From Amaurobius ferox (taxonomy: Eukaryota > Arthropoda > Arachnida > Araneae > Amaurobiidae), in the NCBI GenBank assembly GCA_951213105.1, contig OX578136.1, forward strand, positions 74,889,230 to 74,953,229: a DNA stretch of 64,000 nucleotides, in the 5' to 3' direction. Below the pieces are notes generated by a model. That model saw nothing but the letters and a program-made list of their open reading frames with translations, ran no database searches and was not told the origin of the DNA. Position 1 is the stretch's first letter, and each line of letters begins with the position of its first letter. The translations under genes were made by a program, and so were the position numbers. Below are positions 2,786 to 63,811 of this stretch, piece by piece.

Positions 2786-4804
2786 TTTTTTAAATTAGAC
2801 CTGTGCAGACCTCTAGTCTCTAAATAACTGACTTTTGATCTTCGACTTTTCCTTTTCTTCTGCCGGCTCCAAGAACTGGGATTTTTCCAAATTTAGATAA
2901 TTCCCCCCATTATTGCAGTGACGCAGTAGCCGGAACACATTTTTTTTTTTAATTCTTAAATTCTAAAAACTCCTTACTTATTCCCATTATTTATTTATTT
3001 ATTGAAGATAAAAACGGGTTGCTTTTCTAGTTCAAGGACTCCAGAATGACAAACTGAATGATTGAGTAAATATCTTTTATCACATATGTGTTTAGGAAAC
3101 GTTTTGAAACTTTAATTTCGAAGGGGGGTTAAATACGCCTATGCGCATGTGCTTAACATGTGTGTTAAATGTTTAATTGGCTGAATAACTGAGAAATGCC
3201 CAGTCTAAAATGAGACATATATTTGAAATTTGGTGCATGAGTGAACAGTCTGAAAAAGACAACTGAAAAAATTGAATTATTTAAAAAATCGTGTTTTGTA
3301 GGTTTGCTCATTAGGAGGCCGTTGAATTTCAATGAATATTCAGCTAGTGTTTAACTATTTGGTAAACCAATTAGATTTTCCCATTAAAATTCCTGCTGCG
3401 TTAGGTTCTGTCCCGCATTTGAATTTATGAGTGCACAAAGATTTAGTCTTCTAGGTCACAGGAAGCTTCTGAAGGGTTTGGAACGACAAATACACGCAGA
3501 ATAATAATTATACAGGTATTTATTGAATTACAGTATCTGTATAAATGAAATCATTTTTCCTTTCTTGTTTGTAAATAATTTTTATTGTTTGTATAAATAT
3601 TCGGTGAACCAGTAGTTTTTCTCCCTCAAAATTCCGACTGTGTTAAGTTCTGTACCGAAGTTGAATTTTTGAGTATACAAAGATTTAGTCTTCTAGGCCA
3701 CCGGGGCTTTTGAAGGGTTTATAAAAACAAAACACATTCAGGACAATTATTATATAGGTCTCTATTGAGTTACTATGTCAACAAATGAAATCATTTTTCT
3801 GTAAAAACGCCGTGAAAGTGCAGTACCGCTACTAGAGACTAGCTATTTGAATAGAATTGCAGTTCCGCAGCGCCCGTGTAGTGGCAACCGCCATTTCTAT
3901 TCATTACTAGGCAGAACCCGAGATTTTCGAGTAACCCCGGTTAAAACAAATCGTTTTCAACACATGGAATTCTCATGCTAAATACTATAATTTCTAAATA
4001 TATTCTGCAAGGCTAAAAAATGCGGTATGTAGAATATCACATATTTTTAATGCTGTATCGTCCATTTCAAACTACAAATTTCATACAATGCACTCTAATG
4101 TATACTATTTAAAAAGGAAATAATGATATATTCAAAATGACTAAATAAATATTAGTTTTATACCATCGCTCTGGACTCATAGGCATAGAAATATCATTAA
4201 TTTTATTTTTAATTCCAGTTTTTTAATACACACATTTTAGTGTTGTACCTAGATTAGTCTCCAAAATACACATTGAAGTTACACACACACACATATATAT
4301 ATATATTTATATTATAATTATATAATAATCGGTTAGGAGAACTCTTTGGTTATTCCTTGACAAGAAATAGAATGGATAGGAAACTTTCTTTCAGTAAGTG
4401 GGAAAAGCCTCCAGTTACGTTTTTTTCATTCTTTCATTCATTTACTTTGTCCCCCAAACCACACACCCTTCTAAGATTCCCCCTTTATCCTCTTGGACAG
4501 GCGAGCAAGTCATAAACTATAGAGGTCCAAGGGCCTTTCGTCACCTTTACTTACTCTCATTGGCCTATCAGATGCCAATCATTTGAAAAAAGGAACTGCC
4601 CATCTCTTGAGCCACCGGGTGCAATTTTCAAGGGAACGGTGATTTTTTTTAACTGAAGCGTCCCCTTAAGAGCTCATACGGTTATTTTGTCCTGAAAAAG
4701 GGGGGATTATAATGCCATCGAAGCAACTGTAGTCACCTAACTGACATGTATATGCTTTCCTCAAGGAAGTTTTGTAAGTTAATGGCTTCCAAGCAGCAAT
4801 TTTG
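2786..4804. other. Non-coding stretch with a tandem duplication
   Basis: No gene seen. It includes an ancient two-unit tandem duplication (listed separately) and a short CA/TA microsatellite at about 4281-4308. Confidence 0.55.
3366..3805 (+). repeat. Two-copy tandem duplication, period about 241 bp
   Basis: The segment starting AACCAATTAG at 3366 recurs diverged at about 3607 (AACCAGTAG). Both carry CAAAGATTTAGTCTTCTAGG, GAAGGGTTT and AAATGAAATCATTTTTC in the same order. Divergence suggests an old duplication. Confidence 0.7.
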
Positions 4805-5026
4805 GAGTGAGATAACCGAGTGGTTAAGTCACGGGGATTGTACTCGGAGGACCCGAGTTCGGTTTTCGGCTTTGCCTAAACTGTTCCCGTGTACGAGCAC
4901 GTTAAATTTGTGGGTTTGAAAGTCCTTCCGAGCGATTAGATGGCATTGTCTCGGCGGTCTAAACAGATATCTTACACCTTCGGGCAGGTCGGACGGGCTG
5001 GCTCGAAAGAAAGATATCAGCAGTTT
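4805..5026 (+). mobile_element. tRNA-headed SINE sharing its tail with the 5S-headed SINE
   Basis: The head looks like a Ser/Leu-type tRNA: box A is TAACCGAGTGGTTAAG at 4813-4828, and a decayed box B (GAGTTCGGTT) is at about 4855. The body has CACGTTAAATTTGTGGGT and AAGTCCTTCCGAG, which align with the body of the 5S-headed SINE at 16400-16470. The end, CAGGTCGGACGGGCTGG, matches its conserved tail. Flanking duplications could not be set with confidence. Confidence 0.7.
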
Positions 5027-6750
5027 TATTTATTGTACGATAAATATTTTTAATCTTTTTAGGCCTATTTATATTTGTAAGCTAAGCGTTGATTAGTTTA
5101 TCGTTGATTAGAAGCGTTGATTAGATTTTAATATAAGAATGAACTAGTAGCAAAGCTGTTAATTAATAAAAAAAAAATCTGAAAGTTAATACACGTTAAC
5201 GCTTAATATCAACTCTTAACTACCTATCAGGTGATTTTGACACAAATTAAAACAATGAACCCAGCAACAATACAAAAGTATCCAAATACTATTGTCTATA
5301 TTTAAATATTTTTAAATTAAATATGTAAATAAATTGATCATCATTATAACCACACATTCAGCTAAATTAAAAAATATTTAAAACAAAGCAATTTACAAAA
5401 AAATCTCATAAATAATATTTTTATGCAAAATTTGGATGACATGTTGGTTGACATTTCTTATCACAACTAAAACTTTAATATTTTTATCAGGGGGGTGGGC
5501 TGAGTATACCTAGTGTGTGTGTGTGTGTGGGGGGGGGGGCTTAGCTCCCTCTGGCCCTTGCCTGACTACGGTGCTACGTCAAACGTCCAGTGCTCACCAG
5601 GAACTTACCCGCGGGGTTTGCAGCTTCAAACGGAATGGATGCCACCTGTAAAGACAGCACTGATATATAGAATCCAGGAATAATTACAGATAAGATCTCT
5701 TTAGGTAGACAAAATAAGTCATCTCTACTTCGTGGTAATCATTTATAGTTATTACTGGAGGGAGACAGCTATTTTTTGAAAATGCCAATCCCAGAGCTGT
5801 AAATTTTCCATTTCTCTTTTAATTAGGTGGTCAGTCGAAAAAGTACTGGTAACCAGGTGTTTTTGTCATTAGCGTAAACATGTTTCCTGGGAGTAAAGAT
5901 CAGCTTGGTTTGTGTGCGAGATAGTTCAGGGAGCTATGGTAAGGAAGATGTGAACAAGACTGAGATGTGACATTTACGTTGATAGGATTTTCTTTCAAAT
6001 ATTTTTATGTTTAAAAAACTTCATTTTTTGGTATTTAGTAAAATATGAAGTTAGAAAAATCTTGAAATTTCCCAGAGGGGGCAAAGCCCCCTCTGGAAAA
6101 GTTCAGCGGGGGCTCGTGCCCCTCTGCCCCCCCGTAGTCGGCGCCTATGGTGACCATGTACTAGGGTTGAACTGGGCGTGTTTTTCGGCCCGGCCGATTT
6201 TAAAGTAGCGACCCTAGTTCAGTGATAATGGAGTGGGAATCAACACAATAAAAAACAACTGCAAAAGTCCTATTTTTCAAGGGAATGTTATAAAAGAATA
6301 TATCTTAATCTATAATAATAAAATGCAATGTCTGTCTGCGTGTTCGCTACTCCTCCAGAACAATTACCAGGTCGCGCTCAGTTATAAAATTTTACACGCA
6401 AAGAGTGGCGAAGCATTAGGAAAGACAAGGTTATCAGTGTGTATCCACGTTACTTTTATTTTAATTACGGCCAAGTATTTTAATTATATATAATTCGAAA
6501 TACACGTATGAAATGTTTTTCGTGTAAATAAATGCAGGGAGATATTGACAAATTTTTGCTCTGCTTGGTTTTCTTTTCCTTGCTTGCATTGAGAGAACTC
6601 GCCGCTTGCAGGAGAGACATCTTTTGTCTCTCCCTTCAATGTTTTATTGAGGGCTAGCTGAAAGAGTATGTGTGCGTTAATTCTACGCTAGCTATAGTTC
6701 TCAGATAGACGTGTCTATATGCTGTTTTCAGTACATATATTTGCTGAGTT
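5027..6750. other. Non-coding stretch, with hairpin and Helitron-like 5' motif
   Basis: No gene seen. It holds a GT/G tract at 5512-5540 and a GC-rich hairpin at 6072-6096 (CCAGAGGGGGC, loop AAA, perfect complement). It also has a segment starting about 6310 with AATGTCTGTCTGCGTG after TA-rich sequence, resembling the 5' end of many arthropod non-autonomous Helitrons. That last reading is weak. Confidence 0.4.
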
Positions 6751-16220: not shown

Positions 16221-16236
16221 ACAGTAATACTGCCTG

Positions 16237-16607
16237 AGCCAACGGCCCTACCGTGCTGAAAACACCGGTTCTCGTTAGATCACCGAAGTCAAGCAGCATC
16301 GGGTGCGGTTAGTACTTGGGTGGGTGACCACCTGGGAACACCGCGTGCTGTTGGCACATTTCGGGCGCGGTAGCCCGGTAGTTTGCACGCTGCCACAACT
16401 GCCGCCGTGTTCATGCGGAGTACGATCACGTTAAACATGTGGGTCCGTAAGTCCTTCCGAGAGGTTGGTGATAGAGGAAGGAGGGTACGGTCCCTGTGAA
16501 TGCCTCCCCCACTGGGTTTCGGTCTAAATTGAGCGGCACTTTCCGGCCGTCCAAACAATTACCTTACACCTTTCTGGTAGGTCGGTCGGTCTGGGTCTCA
16601 ACAAACA
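16237..16607 (+). mobile_element. 5S-rRNA-headed SINE, complete with 16-bp target-site duplications
   Basis: The insertion of 371 bp is flanked by identical ACAGTAATACTGCCTG at 16221-16236 and 16608-16623. The first 119 bp is a full 5S rRNA-like sequence. It is followed by a body with CGCCGTGTTCATGCGGAGTA, GATCACGTTAAACATGTGGG and AAGTCCTTCCGAGAGG. The conserved tail CTGGTAGGTCGGTCGGTCTG is then followed by GGTCTCAACAAACAA. The exact duplication on both sides shows LINE-type retrotransposition. 5S-headed SINEs (SINE3 class) were described first in fish; the body here differs from what I know of those, but I could not search. Identical flanks suggest a fairly recent insertion. Confidence 0.88.
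16238..16356 (+). rRNA. 5S rRNA-like head of the SINE (not a stand-alone 5S gene)
   Basis: Starts GCCAACGGCCCTACC and ends GCGTGCTGTTGGC, which pair as helix I. It keeps the internal control region (TCACCGAAGTCAAGCAGC; GGTTAGTACTTGGGTGGGTG; CCTGGGAACACC). No poly-T terminator follows; the sequence runs straight into the SINE body, and the target duplication surrounds both together. It therefore functions as the pol III promoter of a retroelement rather than as a ribosomal gene. Confidence 0.85.
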
Positions 16608-16623
16608 ACAGTAATACTGCCTG

Positions 16624-16787
16624 GAATTGCACTCGGTACTGCCAAAACTGCCGCCGTGTTCACGCGGAGTACGATCACGTTAAACATGTGGGTCCGTAAG
16701 TACTTCCGAGAGGTTACTTAGAGAGGAGGTAAGTACTTCCGAGAGGTACACTTTTCTGGTAGGTCGGACGGTCTGGGTCTCAGCAAC
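16624..16787 (+). mobile_element. Second, 5'-truncated copy of the same SINE body
   Basis: Directly follows the right target duplication of the first element. ACTGCCGCCGTGTTC, GATCACGTTAAACATGTGGG, AAGTACTTCCGAGAGG (present twice, at about 16697 and 16731) and the tail GGTAGGTCGGACGGTCTGGG are shared with the first copy. It ends CAGCAACAACAGTAATACTG, again giving the ACAGTAATACTG target sequence. This is either an earlier insertion at the same site or a tandem dimer product. Confidence 0.8.
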
Positions 16788-16800
16788 AACAGTAATACTG

Positions 16801-17699
16801 TCAAGTTAGCTTTGCCGCAAATATATATTATTAAATCAGGCGGCCAAAATTGCTTTTTTTTAAGGGGTATCATTTTTATACTGGGTTAATAAAACAGTTA
16901 TTACTCTTTATGGATGCGTCATATTTTTTTTTCTTAATAAGTGATTTGCCAATAATTATTTTAGGCAAAGGTGACCGCCAATGAAATACGTTCTACTAGT
17001 CAGTGGCCACTAATAAAATTTTTGAGTTGTTCATTTTCCGTACAATGCACATTGTACATAACCATAACGGATCTTCTCTATATTCATTTCGCCGTTGACA
17101 GTTTAAATTCTGTTTTCTTTCAATTTTGTGAAAATTAATGAATTCCTACTTTTATGTACGAGTCTTCATGACTTTGTTCCGTATTTTTTGTATAAATGGG
17201 TGTATGGGCCCTTAAAAGTTTCAATAGCCATGTGTTTTTTGGTAACTCGTTAATTCATTATTGTCTTATTTAAGTTATTATTACTTTTCTTACTTTACAT
17301 AGTATACGTAAAGAGGAAAAAGTCTGATGGGACCAAAACATTCAGGTCTCTGATTTTTATGCATCTACACATTTTGAGCATACCATCTTTTAAAAAAAAT
17401 TGAATACATGAATGCAATTAATCCCTGCTTTAAATTCCGGGCAACAGCAGGTACATTTTCTGGTATAGTATGTGGAGGGATTGATAATGTGAACTACCAA
17501 ATGGAAGTTAATAGTATGAAAATAGTTTTTAGTAACTGAGTTTAAACCAAATGTTTACACAGGTGGCACTAAGCTGTTGCTAGCGTGAGAAAAAATATAC
17601 TTTTGAAGAATTTGTACATAAAATATTAAAAAAGGAAAAGAAACTTTTTTGCAACCTTTTATTTAACTTGATCTGGTGTTTATTTATCTGTGTGATTCA
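16801..17699. other. Non-coding AT-rich stretch
   Basis: Nothing recognisable beyond short AT-rich low-complexity sequence. Confidence 0.5.
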
Positions 17700-34089: not shown

Positions 34090-34161
34090 GTCCCAGTAGC
34101 TCAACGGTAGAGCGTCGGCTGACCAGTTCAGAGATCCAGGGTTCGATTCCCGGTTGGGGCA
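34090..34161 (+). tRNA. tRNA-like sequence, probably degenerate or SINE-derived
   Basis: Acceptor strands GTCCCAG and TTGGGGC pair (two G-U pairs), the D arm GCTC-AACGGTA-GAGC is intact, box A is TAGCTCAACGG and box B GGTTCGATTCC is perfect. The T arm has one mismatch. The anticodon arm does not fold into a proper 7-nt loop with U33, so no anticodon can be assigned. A CTTTACACCTTTT run follows within 25 bp and could terminate pol III. It is more likely a pseudogene or SINE head than a working tRNA. Confidence 0.5.
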
Positions 34162-34817: not shown

Positions 34818-61796
<26,979 letters not shown>

Positions 61797-61833
61797 GTAA
61801 TTCTCATTTTATTTTCCAACTTGGTAATTGTAT

Positions 61834-62021
61834 CAGGCGTGGCGACACGTCAAAATTTTCAAATCATTAAATTAAATAAACAAATGACAAATCTTGAAGC
61901 CAGATCCAAAGGTCACTTTATTAAACAATCATCCTACAGATGTCTGTAGGATAATTGTTTAATAAAGTGACCTTTGGATCTGGTTTTATAAAATTTGTCA
62001 TTTGTTTAGTTAATTTAATGA
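61834..62021 (+). mobile_element. Snap-back insertion with 13-bp target duplications
   Basis: TTGGTAATTGTAT occurs at 61821-61833 and 62022-62034. The 188-bp insert starts CAGGCGTGGCGACACGTC and then forms a near-perfect inverted repeat with arms of about 75 bp (61863-61940 and 61943-62020) centred on CTACAGATGTCTGTAG. Lies 37 bp after the exon 3 donor. Confidence 0.8.
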
Positions 62022-62395: not shown

Positions 62396-63395
62396 TACGA
62401 GGGTCACACTGAAATTTTGAGACAGGAGCAGGCTATATGCACTAGAAAAAAAATTATTAGTTGGTTATTTAAATTTGAACTCTTATGTCCGCAGATGATA
62501 ATTTGTGGCAACAATTACAATTTGGCTATCATAGAATAAATTTTGAAAGAAAAGAAAATGAAGTTGACATGAGAGGAGCTATAATTTTTTATGATTTTAA
62601 AATGGGACTAAATCAAGAAGAATGTCTTCAATGTCTACAATTAGCATGTGGAAATAATCCTTCATCTCGTGCCACTGTATTCAGATGGTTTACAGAGTTT
62701 AGAAGAGGTCGAAATTCTCTCCTGGATGAAGCACACAGGAAGATCTTTGTCAACTGTAGTCCCAGAAAATGTGTTGGCTATTTGAAAAATGTTATTCGAT
62801 GATAATAGCTGTACCTACCAACTGATACAGAAGGAACTTAGCATTGGATTCGCAGCTATACATAAAATTATTCATGAAGAACTGCATATGAAACAATTAG
62901 TTTGTCGTTGGGTCCCCCATAATTTAACACACCAAAAAGTGGAACGTGTCAGAATCAGTAAAGAAACCCTAAAATTACTTAATGATGGTGGACACCGCAT
63001 TATTTTTAAAATCATAACTGGTGATTAAAAGGACATATCATTTTTTGACTTTCCAACAAGTCAAGAAAGTAAAGTATGGATCTTTAAAAATGACACCAAA
63101 CCAATAATGGTGAAAAGACAATGAGTGATTAAAAAATAAAAGTAATGTATGCCGCGTTCATCAGAAGTACAAATCTGGTCAAAGCCATAAAGCTAGAGGG
63201 ATAGAAGACAGTTATATAGCTAACTGGTACACCACTAAGTGTCTTCCAGAAATTCTTCAGAAAGTGAATGTTAGGGGACTCATGCTTTACCATAACAATG
63301 CATCTTCTGATTCAGCAAGAATGATAGTTGAATTTCTTGAACAAAAAATCATCAAAGTGATAGAACATCCACCCTATTCTCCTGATCTTGCTATG

Positions 63396-63460
63396 TTGAA
63401 GACCCAGACCGTCCGACTCGTCCAGAGGACTTAGAGTAACAAGTTGGACGGCTGGGAAGG
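63396..63460 (-). mobile_element. 65-bp SINE-tail insertion with 14-bp target duplications
   Basis: CTGATCTTGCTATG at 63382-63395 and 63461-63474 flank it. The reverse complement ends GAGTCGGACGGTCTGGGTCT, the tail of the 5S-headed SINE family. It interrupts the mariner motif just before the third catalytic Asp. Confidence 0.85.
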
Positions 63461-63811
63461 CTGATCTTGCTATGTGTGATTTTTGGCTATTTAATCTTAA
63501 AAAAAAAAAAAAAAAGTAGGCTTTGTTTTCATTCCGAAGATGAGGCTATAAAGAGCTTATTTTTCATCGATTCCAAGAAATGGATGGCTTGAAACATTTA
63601 ATCTTGAAGACCCAGACCGTCCGACTCGTCCAGAGGACTTAGAGTAACAAGTTGGACGGCCGGGAAGGCTGATCTTGCTATGTGTGATTTTTGGCTATTT
63701 AATCTAAAAAAAAAAAAAAAAAAGTAGGCTTTGTTTTCATTCCGAAGATGAGGCTATAAAGAGCTTATTTTTCATCGATTCCAAGAAATGGATGGCTTGA
63801 AACATTTAATC
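63396..63811 (+). repeat. 208-bp perfect-looking tandem duplication
   Basis: Unit 63396-63603 repeats at 63604-63811 with about two differences. The unit includes the SINE-tail insertion plus the A17 run and the next 130 bp of the mariner, so the duplication is younger than the insertion. Confidence 0.92.

Follow-up and report, generated by a model that had tools for sequence, protein, structure and literature searches.

5S rRNA-headed SINEs in the spider Amaurobius ferox and their insertions at shared target sites

Positions 16238-16607 of the window, the whole 64,000-nt stretch of DNA analysed here, very probably represent one copy of a SINE3-type retroposon family of the spider Amaurobius ferox, which carries a 5S rRNA head and has undergone the same-site insertions proposed below. 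Both a tRNA-headed sister SINE and a probable LINE partner occur in the same genome, which allows the exchange of heads to be followed base by base.

The element in the window and its dispersed copies

Read directly, the element is enclosed on both sides by exact 16-nt duplications (Table 1). Its 5' head is derived from 5S rRNA, as is expected of a SINE3, and matches the Rfam model over its full length. A sequence-only reading had described such a 5S-headed SINE between two exact copies of ACAGTAATACTGCCTG in an arthropod-like genome; the element, its flanking repeat and the arthropod host all stand.

Table 1. Features of the window that belong to or resemble the SINEs and LINE tails discussed in the text
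Feature	Position	Strand	Basis or remark
Left target-site duplication ACAGTAATACTGCCTG of the 5S-headed SINE	16221..16236	+	Exact 16-nt repeat
5S rRNA head	16238..16356	+	Rfam RF00001 5S_rRNA, full model, 105.9 bits, E 3.3e-22
Linker CATTTC, joining 5S to tRNA remnant	16357..16362	+	Read directly
5' half of tRNA head, box A region present, box B absent	16363..16389	+	Alignment to tRNA-headed SINE
SINE body common to tRNA-headed SINE	16390..16542	+	Consensus comparison
3' tail, hairpin and (CAA)n-type end	16543..16607	+	Covarying stem; likeness to LINE 3' end
Second copy of duplication ACAGTAATACTGCCTG	16608..16623	+	Last bases CCTG continue into truncated SINE
tRNA-headed SINE with 5' truncation and internal deletion, probably inserted first	about 16621..16788	+	
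Third copy of target, ACAGTAATACTG, 12 nt	16789..16800	+	Direct reading
Diverged tRNA-headed relative, within a ~1.48-kb repeat (about 4666-6149)	4803..5014	+	
SINE tail, strongly truncated, flanked by 14-nt duplications CAGACATTATCTCA	50735..50776	-	
~66-nt LINE-type tail, between ACATAGCAAGATCA duplications	63394..63459	-	
Second copy of that LINE-type tail	about 63604-63667		Other unit of 208-bp tandem duplication

At least 40 places in the genome, the window included, match essentially the whole 370-nt query at 92-100% identity (the best 40 of 4653 loose candidates); two further scored rows are tail pieces of 30-34 nt. Because scoring favoured the copies closest to the query, the age of the family cannot be read from their low divergence. 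The 5S-body junction is common to all 30 copies read, again including the window, and these lie on many contigs. Target duplications vary from site to site among the 5S-headed and tRNA-headed loci read. They were detected in 29 of 30 5S loci and in 30 of 30 tRNA loci with a permissive search (at least 8 nt, one mismatch allowed, run without a shuffled control), which returned no duplication at L026, and those of L004 and L028 sit in CA repeats and carry little evidential weight. The element had been predicted to belong to a dispersed family with variable duplications, and this is what the genome contains: the single junction of a SINE3, neither unique to the window nor restricted to 5S gene clusters.

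The 5S-headed copies come in two forms of ~367 nt and ~380 nt, which differ by one 13-nt stretch; the window copy is of the 367-nt form. A further 5S subfamily is present in L008, L073 and L081. The 104,121 first-look 5S candidates across the genome are loose matches and give no copy number. Among the 47 scored 5S matches, the six that were read comprise five that run on into the 5S-headed SINE family, one of them (L091) into the tRNA half only, and a sixth, L096, that heads another 5S+tRNA element; no plain host 5S gene was found among the six. A 5S pseudogene, or a cluster of tandem 5S genes, adjoining an unrelated repeat would fit the completeness of the 5S part, but an identical junction in all 30 read copies, on many contigs and with their own duplications, leaves this explanation with virtually no chance of being correct.

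Several other sequences were seen alongside the SINEs. Two stretches of the window (42412-42948 and 61469-61870) hold open frames that by eye resemble immunoglobulin-type receptor exons, and a long imperfect TA/TG microsatellite lies at 60447-61130. Elsewhere in the genome, contig C276 yields a 296-residue stretch of COX1 (invertebrate mitochondrial code) with 95% identity to Amaurobius and 88-91% to the spiders listed next. COX1 copies on C14, C17, C18 and C182 are as complete as the copy on C276 and contain TGA codons of the mitochondrial code; those on three large contigs are probably recent mitochondrial insertions.

The head swap, the tail and the LINE partner

The body was also said to be used by a tRNA-headed SINE, and the comparison of the two consensus sequences agrees: from AACTGCCGCC to the end, tail included, only 1 of 208 positions differs, which is the HaSE3-type arrangement, where body and tail also occur in a tRNA-headed SINE within one genome. 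This sister SINE occurs near full length at 97-100% identity in at least 40 places, query included (the best 40 of 2645 loose candidates), of which 30 loci were read, and it has a box A and a box B, which we take to be such from the consensus motifs. The diverged relative at 4803-5014 is a copy in the window. When used as the family query, it retrieved its carrier repeat instead of the SINE family, and cleaner copies of the sister exist elsewhere in the genome. The ~1.48-kb carrier (about 4666-6149), with its old tRNA-headed SINE, has copies elsewhere that are up to 99.8% identical.

Compared with this sister, the 380-nt form of the 5S-headed SINE has lost box B in a 27-nt gap and preserves the first half of the tRNA head, which includes box A; the 367-nt form is shorter still by 13 nt. 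The 5S head thus stands upstream of a tRNA-headed SINE that is without its type-2 promoter, and both the join and the loss are visible in the alignment. The CATTTC linker recurs, with small changes, in the 30 copies aligned and also in L096, a second element that combines 5S and tRNA. In that chimera, a 5S head and a CATTTC-like linker precede a different tRNA, which looks complete and in which box A and box B can be made out by eye, and a body of another kind. The type-1 promoter of the 5S head would replace the type-2 promoter of the tRNA, and a template switch of the reverse transcriptase probably joined the two parts. Neither consensus sequence contains four consecutive T, which is only compatible with Pol III transcription from the 5S promoter. 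With ARAGORN, neither the window nor any of five submitted SINE sequences gave a tRNA call. A tRNA match of 36.3 bits at 34090-34161 of the window, over the Rfam cut-off and without an ARAGORN call, may be a gene or a SINE head.

The tail was analysed in an alignment of 16 sequences, namely 15 of the 17 listed LINE-type tails and one SINE consensus; the alignment omits a half-length tail in L008 and the tail of the L086 LINE. Its stem consists of 8 pairs and an inner hairpin of 4, in a model drawn from the same sequences that were used to test it. The stem cells are paired in 93.2% of cases against 85.4% in shuffles and at most 49% in slid versions, and covariation amounts to 0.365 against 0.211 in shuffles and at most 0.119 when slid. 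Changes on both sides were counted in 20 cells, where the shuffled mean is 7.0 and 0 of 500 shuffles reached as high. Two further measures do not stand out, as the number of pairs with a both-side change was equalled in 100 of 500 shuffles and that of further pair types in 337 of 500. Pairing is lower in the inner hairpin (84% of cells) than in the outer stem (98%). At E-values up to 1, Rfam returned no family for the tail hairpin in the three loci examined; the microRNA names in that search fall on an inverted SINE pair and score under their cut-offs.

A LINE with a tail of this type was found at L086, where an ORF with RNase H is followed by a 3' UTR and then by the LINE-type tail. The UTR and tail match at least 40 places, L086 included, at 97-100% over essentially all 495 nt (the best 40 of 654 candidates); the join between the two was read at L086, and the other copies were matched. 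As in other SINE3 elements, the 3' end is held in common with a LINE: the last 63 nt of the SINE are about 75-78% identical to this LINE 3' end. The latter is without the (CAA)n run of the SINE tail, and the true partner may, on such sequence likeness, be another LINE of the same lineage. RNase_H was found in both LINE ORF pieces read, which are C-terminal parts in which no RT match was obtained. Among 16 related proteins, most of the named ones come from Araneus ventricosus, two of these Araneus relatives bear the source label R1DM, and RT accompanies RNase H in several relatives. RNase H is present in other LINE clades too. We infer that the LINE with RNase H, or a close relative, likely mobilises these SINEs. 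At its 3' end the SINE RNA would carry a hairpin and an ACA-rich tail, like the RNA of the LINE. A nick made by the LINE at TTWC|ACA-like sites, followed by target-primed reverse transcription of the SINE, would yield duplications of about 8-18 nt.

Many LINE-type tails measure no more than ~58-66 nt, start at the 5' base of the hairpin (CCGGCC...) and mostly have a visible target duplication. They were located in L008, L021, L026, L029, L067, L073 and L081 and at 63394-63459(-) of the window, as if reverse transcription often halted past the hairpin or a discrete 60-nt RNA was copied. The tail in the window is carried by a 208-bp tandem duplication (63393-63808) with 99% identity between its units.

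Insertions at shared targets

A second body had been noted at the site of the 5S-headed copy. It is indeed a truncated relative (its identity to the first is 92% in a part of 89 nt and 93% in another of 55 nt, and the middle is absent), but it is a separate insertion and not part of one element. The truncated unit starts inside the tRNA head, with CTGGAATTGCACTCGG; the CCTG at 16620-16623 is contiguous with it, and CTG fits its tRNA head. This CCTG is present in the left duplication as well as at the start of the truncated unit. Because it adjoins the truncated SINE and is absent from the right-hand genomic flank, the genomic target is probably the 12-nt ACAGTAATACTG, so the reported 16-bp duplication holds as an exact repeat and probably not as the target. 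Most economically, the truncated tRNA-headed SINE inserted before the 5S copy, an order that depends on three to four bases. The truncated SINE would have entered at ACAGTAATACTG. The 5S copy would then have used that nick again, to the left of the first SINE, and its duplication would have taken in the 12 target bases together with the CCTG at which the first SINE starts.

Adjacent bodies with the same motif between and around them could also suggest a single composite or dimeric SINE at 16221-16803, made up of 5S head, body, site and second body and mobile as a whole. This reading has hardly any probability left and was rejected, as the pair recurs in 0 of the 29 other 5S copies read, the neighbours vary by locus in family, truncation and spacing, and the separator is local target sequence that differs at each locus.

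Separate insertions at one site are not limited to the window. For the count of such stacks, 58 loci were used, without the window copy (L001) and L061, which belongs to the same stack as L002. A relative on the same strand lies at most 60 nt away in 16 of the 58 and one on the opposite strand in 2 (18 and 2 under a slightly wider overlap rule), where 0.92 loci are expected from the density 201-1500 nt away; the tail library for this count was taken partly from L008, L010 and L021 and favours those three. On reading, a target duplication common to several units was found in 9 of 58 loci (L002, L008, L010, L016, L020, L021, L024, L073 and L081). For the others among the 16, the target of L086, L087 and L090, ACACCTTTCTGGTA, is also found in the tail of the SINE itself, L075 may share a duplication of which the third copy carries two mismatches, and no shared duplication was found in L026, L030 and L082. 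In L074, outside the 16, the target likewise occurs in the SINE's own tail. The largest stack, L008, comprises eight site copies and seven insertions; L021 and L073 comprise five insertions each, with one L073 unit inverted.

Head-to-tail units with near-identical separators are also what unequal crossing-over between target duplications would leave behind, and tandem duplication of this kind is known from the window itself, in the 208-bp duplication at 63.4 kb. Further points in its favour are the locally duplicated flank of L008 (with a copy at -916) and neighbours of the same kind in L081 (two full tRNA-headed units), L075 (three) and L073 (two LINE tails). In most of the nine stacks, however, the units are of different kinds (5S-headed, tRNA-headed and LINE-type tails) and differ in truncation and divergence. 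Because units so unlike in kind and truncation argue against simple tandem duplication, we consider it improbable as the origin of the stacks and read them as separate insertions.

Such insertions might be expected to extend a stack leftward only, because the target is retained in the left duplication, whereas CAACA|ACA is the sequence at the right junction. Strict leftward growth was rejected, as divergence is mixed: the younger copy is the left one in L024 and the right one in L008. It is also the right one in L082, where the neighbour has no shared duplication. An order of insertion is claimed for the window alone.

The target sites lean to T/T/[AT]/C before AC. This was read from 41 sites picked by hand, one per locus, of which 37 are left edges and 4 are the leftmost sites of stacks; the other 19 of the 60 loci read were excluded from the motif set. 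C stands at -1 in 31 of the 41 sites and A or T at -2 in 36 of the 41, whereas the AC at +1/+2 is partly imposed by the way the start was set. For the window as a whole, [AT]C precedes 413 of 2940 AC dinucleotides (14%). The motif was rejected as the full cause of the stacks, since it looks too loose to account alone for stacks of seven, and our guess is that site accessibility accounts for the remainder. Tentatively, and with somewhat less than even confidence, we suggest that SINEs and short LINE ends re-enter the same nick, that the duplication preserves the target, and that certain sites stay open beyond the effect of sequence. If so, stacks of two to seven different elements at a single position would be a record of which elements were active and in what order, and a natural assay of the choice made by the LINE endonuclease.

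Comparison with known SINEs and LINEs

SINE3 elements have been published from vertebrates and some insects. In amniotes, AmnSINE1 combines 5S and tRNA pieces in one head, as does the Amaurobius element, from which it would be set apart by its Deu domain and a different tail. Among the matches listed from open-licence literature on SINE, 5S and spider, no spider 5S SINE was present. That an arthropod case would be exceptional, as first supposed, is contradicted by the available parts of publications on Tribolium, Helicoverpa and other Lepidoptera (PMC3272025, PMC8010984, PMC10886601, PMC7245038). The closest of these is HaSE3 of Helicoverpa armigera, which, in the portion of PMC3272025 at hand, shares its body and 3' tail with HaSE1, a tRNA-headed SINE of the same genome, and for which the authors propose template switching as the origin of the chimera. 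By the description given there, HaSE3 is a moth element with an RTE LINE-related tail, whereas the Amaurobius element is a spider element with a tail like that of a LINE with RNase H and, unlike HaSE3, keeps half a tRNA head behind the 5S.

Several other lepidopteran SINE3 families, including PxSE4 and PxSE5, have 5S heads with boxes A, IE and C and copy numbers of hundreds to thousands (PMC8010984 and PMC10886601, as excerpted); their tails, where given, are (TGA)n or (ATGT)n, unlike that of the Amaurobius element, and their hosts are Lepidoptera. Another arthropod 5S-headed SINE, from a beetle, is the Repbase element SINE3-1_TC of Tribolium castaneum, to the extent that the text citing it (PMC7245038) describes it. 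The accessible text of the same paper names CR1 for the SINE3 elements of vertebrates, whereas those of beetle and moth seem to be moved by I and RTE (PMC7245038).

With several insertions per position, the Amaurobius stacks make target choice and relative element age testable. Tandem Alu insertions, in which SINEs inserted side by side, were reportedly described by El-Sawy and Deininger in 2005, as cited in PMC3415434. Compared with these, the Amaurobius stacks hold several kinds of element and up to seven insertions per site. The available passage of PMC3415434 calls tandem Alu insertion common. As for the LINE, R1-clade elements include some with AC-repeat targets, such as Mino (PMC3124438, as far as its accessible part goes). 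The likeness to this clade lies in the two Araneus relatives labelled R1DM and in the ACA of the Amaurobius target sites, and the difference from Mino, as described in that part, in a target that is a loose motif and not an AC repeat. The element is a further SINE3-type family with a plan as in HaSE3, which adds an arachnid to the arthropod SINE3 families found in print; the repeated use of one target is less expected.
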